A stretch of 35,699 nucleotides of DNA. Origin: a virus. The stretch's first letter is position 1; each line of letters starts with the position of its first letter. Under the pieces are notes generated by a model that was not told the origin of the DNA, ran no database searches, and worked only from the letters and a program-made list of their open reading frames with translations. The stretch spans positions 1 through 35,699 of the IMG/VR virus record IMGVR_UViG_3300044620_000139, one strand, 5' to 3'. The position numbers were made by a program, and so were the translations under genes. Shown here piece after piece: positions 34,291 through 35,699 of this stretch.

Positions 34291-34459
34291 GTTTAGGTGT
34301 TAAGTTAAATTTTAAAATATGTTTTTCTTCTCCCAAGAAATACTGAGTAGTAAGGACCTTACTGTGCTGTCTACAATAAGATCCAAACTTTCTCTTCATA
34401 TGTCTTTCCTGTCTAATTAATTTATCCAGACAAGCAGATGTAAATTCTCCAATTACCAT
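34241..34459 (-). CDS. Small basic hypothetical protein (72 aa)
   Basis: This very basic, His/Lys-rich protein has the segment L-I-R-Q-E-R-H-M-K-R-K-F-G-S-Y-C-R and a strand T-Q-Y-F-L-G-E. The C-terminal third, encoded within the overlap with the next gene, is polar. The ATG overlaps the stop of the preceding 90-aa gene as ATGA, supporting real translation. Nucleic-acid binding is plausible from charge alone; not recognised. Confidence 0.55.
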   Translation of the reverse strand: MVIGEFTSACLDKLIRQERHMKRKFGSYCRQHSKVLTTQYFLGEEKHILKFNLTPKHGNIGEISNSKGDASN

Positions 34460-34731
34460 CAGTAGTCCTCTATTAAATAATCAGATAGCTTATACTTTCC
34501 ACGAGCGATCTTAACAAGTAAGTCTCTTTGTCTAAGTGAAGCTATCATCTTCTCTAATGTAACATTAGATATCTGAAGTTGAAAACATATATGTCCCTTA
34601 TTAATCTTATCAGCATACCAGATGTTGTTATCAAGATCCATTTGCTTCATAATATGATACAGGGCATGGAAACTGTTGTCGTTTGACTTCAGCAATATAC
34701 TGTCTCTAATATCAAGATGTACTAATATCAT
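34459..34731 (-). CDS. Small winged-helix protein (90 aa)
   Basis: This 90-aa protein has the compact pattern of a winged-helix domain. Helices around S-F-H-A-L-Y-H-I-M come first, then a helix-turn-helix with I-S-N-V-T-L-E-K-M-I-A-S-L and a wing (L-L-V-K-I-A-R-G-K-Y-K-L). It is similar in layout to the upstream 172-aa protein and could be a second initiator-like or regulatory protein. A 56-nt AT-rich gap with a small inverted repeat separates the two genes. Confidence 0.6.
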   Translation of the reverse strand: MILVHLDIRDSILLKSNDNSFHALYHIMKQMDLDNNIWYADKINKGHICFQLQISNVTLEKMIASLRQRDLLVKIARGKYKLSDYLIEDY

Positions 34732-34787: not shown

Positions 34788-35306
34788 TTATTTTATAAAA
34801 GGCTGAAAAACTTTAAAAACAGAATTGTCTATTGTGCGACGTTTACGAGCTATGTAAGGATTTAACATATACACTACACGTACTTCTCCTGATATCCTAC
34901 CCTTTATCTGATAAAGTACTCCAAGCTCCATAAGTTTCTTAAGCAATTTAAAAAACTTATCTCTTGATGAGTAGCCTAGCAATACTTGTAGTGACTCATT
35001 GCTATGTGGTTGAGGGCCATTGTATACTAAATTTAACGGAGTCTTAAGATCAGTAGCCATAGTTATCACACTAGCTAACTCTACTCTTGATAATTCAGTG
35101 ACCAAAAACTTTACTGTAGCACTGTCGAGTACTATATAATCATCTGTGGACATTACTACATAACTTCCCTCCTCAGTAATCTTCACAGTCATCTTATCTT
35201 TACTAAGTGCTGAAGTCAGTAGCTCTCCCGTTTCAGTGTTGACGTATGATTCTAAATCAAAGTCTACATTTTTTGTGACTCTAGGTCTCCTAATTGAATT
35301 TCCCAT
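34788..35306 (-). CDS. RepL-like winged-helix replication/regulatory protein
   Basis: This 172-aa protein has an N-terminal region (R-R-P-R-V-T-K-N, Y-V-N-T-E-T-G-E-L-L). A helical section (L-D-S-A-T-V-K-F-L-V-T-E-L-S) follows, and then a winged-helix with L-Q-V-L-L-G-Y-S-S-R-D-K-F-F-K-L-L and the wing plus V-Y-M-L-N-P-Y-I-A. The 'x-L-N-P-Y-I-A' ending after a winged helix is characteristic of RepL-type replication proteins and related phage regulators. It is the first gene of the leftward block and lies beside the repeat-rich region at the right end, so it could act there. Initiator versus repressor cannot be decided. Confidence 0.65.
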   Translation of the reverse strand: MGNSIRRPRVTKNVDFDLESYVNTETGELLTSALSKDKMTVKITEEGSYVVMSTDDYIVLDSATVKFLVTELSRVELASVITMATDLKTPLNLVYNGPQPHSNESLQVLLGYSSRDKFFKLLKKLMELGVLYQIKGRISGEVRVVYMLNPYIARKRRTIDNSVFKVFQPFIK

Positions 35307-35346
35307 AATACAAAAGTACTATAATATTTTTATAATAACTAGCTAA

Positions 35347-35396
35347 AAGTCCCCTTTTGAGTACTTTTAGGCCCTTATAAGTCCCCTTTTGGGCAC
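35347..35396. repeat. Direct repeat pair upstream of the first leftward gene
   Basis: Two 18-bp units, 35347-35364 and 35379-35396, share AAGTCCCCTTTTG, then differ at two positions before a final AC. Reading the minus strand the shared element is CAAAAGGGGACTT. The nearer copy ends about 40 nt upstream of the ATG at 35306, a distance suitable for a promoter or operator. No further copy was seen on reading the rest of the window. Confidence 0.7.
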
Positions 35397-35644
35397 TCGT
35401 ATAAATCCTCTGTAGCGTAGGAGCAGTATAGGGTATAGAAGATTTTTTCTGTTTTCACGCTTGATATTATTTAGGAATCCTTTTTTCCACCCTTAAAAAC
35501 CTAACCCTATATATAAAATTTTTTAGGGGGGTAGGCCTAAAAAATCATCAGTAGCTGGCTCCGAAAATATACCCCCCCCCTATCCTATGTAGGAGTTTAT
35601 CAGGATATGATAGTCGTGGTTACCACCTAAACCACCAACCCCTA

Positions 35645-35675
35645 CTAAAAAATGGATGGGGGAAAGACCCCCGTC
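35645..35675 (-). terminator. Terminator-like hairpin at the right edge
   Basis: The arms 35655-35662 and 35668-35675 form an 8-bp stem (GGGGG/CCCCC core, one G-T pair) with a 5-nt loop. On the minus strand it is followed after two bases by six T (35652-35647). That orientation would stop leftward transcription entering from beyond the right edge, isolating the control region. On the plus strand it lacks a T-tract. Confidence 0.55.
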
Positions 35676-35699
35676 CCTTTACACCCTTAAAACATAGCA

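Follow-up and report, generated by a model that had tools for sequence, protein, structure and literature searches.

Putative paired operator and its predicted winged-helix reader at the divergent junction of contigs assigned to crAss-like phages

The DNA examined (hereafter the window) is a 35.7-kb viral contig, at whose right-hand end lies a gap between genes (positions 35307-35699). By gene content the window is assigned to the crAss-like phages (Crassvirales) as a genome fragment, since it carries a crAss-type TerL, portal and major capsid protein (PHROG matches phrog_6681, phrog_6547 and phrog_11589, respectively) within the two divergent gene blocks typical of the order. Judged by its terminase, it is nearest among cultured phages to Cellulophaga phage phi14:2, a member of the Crassvirales (Steigviridae), with 33% identity over 95%; no isolate of the clade itself was found in the collections searched. 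The giant virion RNA polymerase gene is absent from the window and was seen in relatives only, where a 3457-aa protein matches the catalytic subunit region of phi14:2. The first gene of the leftward block encodes a 172-aa protein, designated REG, and the proposal of the earlier note that a control region stands at the head of this block was borne out. That note had also suggested extending the assembly to the right. Contig L002, whose REG is 100% identical at the protein level, runs on beyond the right end of the window, and its next gene is divergent with an ATG 4 bases after position 35699, so that the gap is truncated only slightly. Long contigs whose genes could be assigned have those for DNA polymerase, helicases, Sak4 and primase on one side of this junction and those for terminase, portal and capsid on the other, both blocks being transcribed outward. 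The relatives thus show the gap to be the divergent control junction at which the replication and packaging/virion blocks of a crAss-like phage meet, the latter block being headed by REG in the window and in most relatives. The features referred to below are as follows (window positions, strand in brackets).

34788-35306 (-): REG, predicted 172-aa winged-helix DNA-binding protein (AlphaFold2 model, alignment of relatives)
35311-35318 (-): -7-like element TACTTTTG (TAnnTTTG), stopping 4 nt short of the REG start codon
35348-35365 (-): op2, predicted 18-bp operator, gene strand AGTACTCAAAAGGGGACT; half-site AGTCCC intact, AGTACT degenerate
35380-35397 (-): op1, predicted 18-bp operator, gene strand AGTGCCCAAAAGGGGACT; 32 bp start-to-start from op2
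35398-35453 (-): spacer between the conserved block and op1
35454-35473 (-): conserved AT-rich block TAAATAATATCAAGCGTGAA
35572-35580 (no strand assigned): C9 run, on the gene strand a G-run followed by TATATTT
35616-35626 (+): GTGGTTACCAC, part of the GTGGTTACCACCTAAACC..CCCCTACTAAA element
35654-35676 (+): hairpin GGATGGGGGAAAGACCCCCGTCC, that is GGATGGGGG-AAAGA-CCCCCGTCC

All the repeats, inverted repeats, C9 run and hairpin that had been listed for the gap from the letters alone were present, but only some of them proved to be shared with relatives. The two 18-bp copies, AGTCCCCTTTTGAGTACT (35348-35365) and AGTCCCCTTTTGGGCACT (35380-35397), are identical at 16 of 18 positions and had been described as direct repeats; they are in fact degenerate palindromes, in which 5 and 6 of 7 arm positions pair, and the direct-repeat appearance is secondary, because each copy keeps one intact AGTCCC half-site and one degenerate half-site (AGTACT in op2, AGTGCC in op1). 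Several inverted repeats do exist, but those outside the palindrome pair are mostly not conserved in relatives, and the 11-bp repeat CACCCTTAAAA occurs twice in the gap but is likewise not conserved.

REG relatives, down to ∼41% identity, were collected by protein searches with the 172-aa product; none was found in the phages collection or in genome_contigs, and the protein of locus L090 had none in the plasmids. For 27 REG genes, the upstream 220 bp were then subjected to a protein-blind search for two similar dyads spaced by 18-44 bp, and the best dyad pair lay at exactly 32 bp in 26 of the 27 loci. The palindromes thus answer the earlier call to look for the repeats in relatives, where they consist of 18 bp, two 6-bp arms flanking an AT-rich centre of 6 bp. 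Among 200 mononucleotide shuffles per locus, none equalled the observed pair in 24 loci, including the window, whereas one did so for L120 and two for L090. The window contains this sole 32-bp-spaced pair and no pair at other spacings of 20-59 bp. At the 27th locus, in genome G014, REG is displaced by 2.4 kb and the only 32-bp pair of the genome still lies at the junction. Scans of long contigs revealed a single pair per genome, except for G015 with three evenly spaced sites and G017, whose pair is degenerate and fell below the genome-wide threshold. A genome-wide REG regulon was rejected, as a second site pair was absent from the genomes scanned. In G015 (L143, 60299-60380), the three REG-type sites follow at successive 32-bp steps with a partial fourth at the promoter. 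Neither a pair nor a REG homologue was detected in the cultured or reference phages phi14:2, crAss001, FpV4 and cr112_1 (∼98% of crAss001 and cr112_1 covered). The junction of phi14:2 resembles that of the window in the common genome layout and in a divergent intergenic region with a G/C hairpin, but the genome of that phage lacks both a REG homologue and any 32-bp palindrome pair.

The pair is embedded in a larger fixed arrangement. In the window, op2 ends 41 bp upstream of REG and the AT-rich block starts 76 bp before op1; in nearly all relatives the corresponding pattern, TAAATAAN(0-5)ATNAAG, is found 76-79 bp before the first site, with outliers at 73 and 81. The spacer between block and op1 is fixed in length, and its sequence is kept among near relatives only. 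A structured RNA in this spacer was considered and rejected, a common fold being absent.

The AlphaFold2 model of REG, built with 22 sequences, has a mean pLDDT of 57.6, with values of ∼77-87 for residues 101-130. Residues 60-150 are modelled as helix-helix-recognition helix-wing at pLDDT ∼64-87 over most of their length, the predicted recognition helix comprising residues 115-128 and the wing residues 131-148; outside residues 60-90 and 100-150 the confidence is only moderate, and the long N-terminal region is predicted to be poorly ordered. No Pfam or PHROG family matched REG above the cut-off, terminase families included, and the match lists of Foldseek and VIA picked out no single family. 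The earlier note had called the gene RepL-like, a label that has to be withdrawn: REG left the PF05732 profile unmatched up to E 10 in the window and in 13 related REG contigs. The gene following REG (window 34459-34731, minus strand) encodes a probable 90-aa winged-helix protein and is next to REG in most relatives. This neighbour is 90-99 aa long, and its counterpart in G023 gave the sole RepL hit in the 13 contigs, one below the cut-off (15 bits, E 2.5e-4). p-crAssphage is reported to carry a repL gene.

About ten dialects can be told apart among the half-sites of the REG loci, such as AGTCCC, GGTACT, GGTGTT, ACTGTC, ACTGCT, ACTTCC, nGTGCG, TGTACn and nGTGCA, across which T(-7) in the DNA and Ser114 in REG are constant. 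Among 17 representatives with less than 90% identity, the REG column that best predicted the half-site class was 115, followed by 119 and 113, the same top three as in an earlier ranking over 135 variable columns, and residues 113-119, at the start of the predicted recognition helix, ranked first of 166 seven-residue windows. Glu or Gln at 115 accompanied C(-8) in 4/4 cases and Lys, Arg, Asn or Pro accompanied G(-8) in 13/13 (two loci whose half-sites were evenly split at -8 were counted by their intact half-sites, which carry G), Met117 accompanied T(-4) in 5/5 and Lys117 C(-4) in 3/3, and Ala116 accompanied A(-6) in 3/3 and Asp116 C(-6) in 2/2, counts that do not represent independent events because the loci are related. 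Column 115 was the sole one of 172 with disjoint residue sets for C(-8) and G(-8), and column 116 ranked first for base -6. On the REG tree, Lys117, Glu/Gln115 and the Asn-Ser-Thr class each occur on more than one branch. The helix triplets leave a choice at some bases, EST occurring with both ACTGTC and ACTACG. A scan of the viral collection by DNA only, for the GTACT dialect, yielded 11 loci. In all eight of those examined, including the distant L066, the adjacent REG carried Ser-Lys-Ala-Met-Phe, as did the remaining three, which were the already known L010, L011 and L013.

As the letters of the sites covary with REG's recognition helix, it is highly probable that REG binds the operator pair. 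Palindromic sites specific to REG are thus found at its own promoter, judged by sequence and covariation. A REG dimer would read each 18-bp palindrome, touching bases -8 to -4 through the N-terminal part of its recognition helix. Since 32 bp correspond to three turns, two dimers would sit on one face of the DNA and presumably bind cooperatively. The arms of the palindromes also co-vary as base-paired stems do, which would be expected if they formed hairpins in a transcript instead of DNA operators. This explanation can scarcely be entertained, as the palindromes lie upstream of the predicted transcription start, keep their three-turn spacing and covary with a DNA-recognition helix, and the neighbouring spacer has no shared fold.

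Sister phages further indicated that the operators and REG travel together. Over the 80 bp that precede the first site L008 and L009 share 95% identity, and over the next gene 90%, but between the first site and the end of REG the identity is only 64-83%, and the two use different dialects. Likewise, the window and L007 share 100% identity upstream and 88% in the next gene, compared with 67-87% inside REG. Going by these alignments, operators and REG are swapped as one cassette between near-identical flanks, so that regulator and operators are exchanged jointly in both comparisons, as in immunity regions. The downstream 90-aa winged-helix protein was rejected as the reader of the operators, being nearly unchanged between L008 and L009, yet their dialects differ. 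Together with the recognition-helix covariation and the fixed 32-bp spacing, cassette exchange lends strong support to the operator that the earlier note had offered as one possibility for the gap.

Genome G014 provides a second view of the module. Here REG is found in the opposite, replication-side block directly behind the SSB gene (L176:15689-16626), and the pair at the junction is ACTACG-N6-CGTAGT, with a block spacing of 76 bp and with C(-8) as Glu115 predicts. The operator unit is oriented toward the block containing REG, as in the other genomes. This arrangement also bears on a packaging (pac) function with REG as the small terminase, an idea favoured by the gene order of most relatives, in which REG is followed within a few genes by the large terminase; with REG of G014 in the replication-side block while the pair is still at the junction, and with no terminase-family match, we regard it as very improbable.

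All 26 loci that have a pair carry a TAnnTTT[GA] box in the stretch from op2 to the start codon. TAnnTTTG is the host-type -7 consensus, and the promoter of REG is thereby indicated to be of host type rather than phage-specific, contrary to one of the options of the earlier note. As the box of the window ends 4 nt before the start codon, the sequence suggests a nearly leaderless REG mRNA read by the host polymerase. The distance from op2 to the box varies from ∼0 to 58 bp between lineages; op2 abuts or overlaps it in L120 and L134, and additional operator copies surround the promoter in L117, L118 and L090, and both observations favour autorepression. Since the sites lie upstream of or overlap the host-type promoter of REG, negative autoregulation appears the most likely function, and REG would thereby time or limit the operon that it heads, which in the window and most relatives is the packaging/virion block. 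Taken as a whole, a paired REG operator at the divergent junction acting by negative autoregulation is the reading we consider probable; for the narrower claim that REG mainly represses its own operon, the balance tips only slightly in favour.

Alternatively, REG could activate the downstream operon by drawing host RNA polymerase to it, in an early-to-late switch. Early genes of crAss-like phages are assigned to the virion RNA polymerase and late genes probably to that of the host (PMC10136315; PMC8375218), and several lineages place op2 ∼30-58 bp upstream of the -7 box. Against this, the distance from op2 to the box is neither constrained nor helically phased between lineages, and the abutting or overlapping sites and additional promoter copies described above do not fit an activator, which we therefore hold to be improbable.

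For a repressor that simply occludes its promoter, a fixed block-op1-op2 geometry combined with a variable distance to the -7 box is superfluous. As occlusion leaves this geometry unexplained, a replication origin stays in play as the main rival to operator and autorepression, with REG as the initiator, op1 and op2 as its binding sites, the AT-rich block as the site of melting or loading, and the dialects as replicon incompatibility groups. The geometry is held across the ten dialects, even in the genome with REG elsewhere, where the SSB gene is directly upstream of REG. In a skew check, also suggested in the earlier note, contigs spanning the junction had their cumulative GC-skew minimum at this point or no more than ∼1-2 kb from it, but the direction of transcription accounts for the skew equally well. 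Structure matches of REG in the PDB are weak and include RepA initiator N-domains (4pql/4pt7/5kbj, Z ∼8), but these are tied with MarR, Fur and TFE domains. With no RepL match, REG mostly at the head of the packaging and not the replication block, and two sites only in most genomes, we consider an origin unlikely, though a serious competitor. The RepA_N/RepL initiators with iterons are comparable in that a winged-helix protein acts near its own gene on sites at a fixed distance from an AT-rich block; they differ from REG, which has no RepL or RepA family sequence match, two inverted-repeat sites instead of an iteron array in most genomes, and, in most relatives, a gene that opens the packaging block.

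Other close parallels are found among repressors. MarR/PadR autorepressors share the winged helix, a palindromic operator at the own promoter and comparable fold scores, and differ in having no sequence match to REG, which has strict 32-bp twin sites and a long, poorly ordered N-terminal region. In temperate phages, the lambdoid CI/OR is a repressor/operator system of superinfection immunity, and the repressor and stoperators of Cluster A mycobacteriophages reportedly form an immunity system. The likeness to REG lies, at the level of sequence, in the presence of two or more palindromic operators within a divergent control region and in specificities of repressor and operator that diversify together and are apparently cassette-mobile, repression and immunity being hypothetical here. 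The differences are that REG belongs to another protein family, that its sites occur once per genome and are not scattered, and that the Crassvirales are described as incapable of lysogeny (PMC8375218). An immunity-type repressor/operator cassette in this clade, although it is regarded as non-lysogenic, is a speculative proposal that we would put forward with considerable doubt. If it were true, phages in one cell would silence one another when their dialects agree but not when they differ; this would drive the dialects apart and favour the swapping of cassettes, and it could sustain long-term carrier states. If the dialects set phage compatibility, this would bear on the coexistence of the abundant crAss-like phages and on their persistence in the host.

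Promoter and origin sequences of crAss-like phages have hardly been described; the two Crassvirales papers searched mention no phage promoter motif, and one of them gives the replication mode as unknown. The module defined here, a single-copy cis-acting unit of fixed geometry at the main junction with a predicted reader protein, offers a first testable regulatory site for this poorly understood group, and its ∼ten dialects a natural residue-to-base code that can be tested with existing orthologues.

The C9 run is present as noted earlier but varies in length and is C8 in the near-identical L002; a G/C homopolymer followed by TATATTT, of variable run length, was observed in nearly all relatives. 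The terminator-like hairpin (35654-35676), in the 5' leader of the divergent gene, recurs in relatives but the T-run behind it does not, and an intrinsic terminator was therefore rejected. The GTGGTTACCAC motif is conserved and single-copy in the same leader. A GTGGTAACCAC/hairpin element as a repeated phage promoter was also rejected: it is single per genome, which leaves a recurrent polymerase promoter unsupported. The GTGGTTACCACCTAAACC..CCCCTACTAAA element and the G5/C5 hairpin (35616-35676) lie together in the leader of the divergent replication-side gene, and could represent a virion-polymerase promoter or an RNA element. A similar-looking arrangement of element and hairpin was seen by eye in phi14:2 near 98.0 kb.
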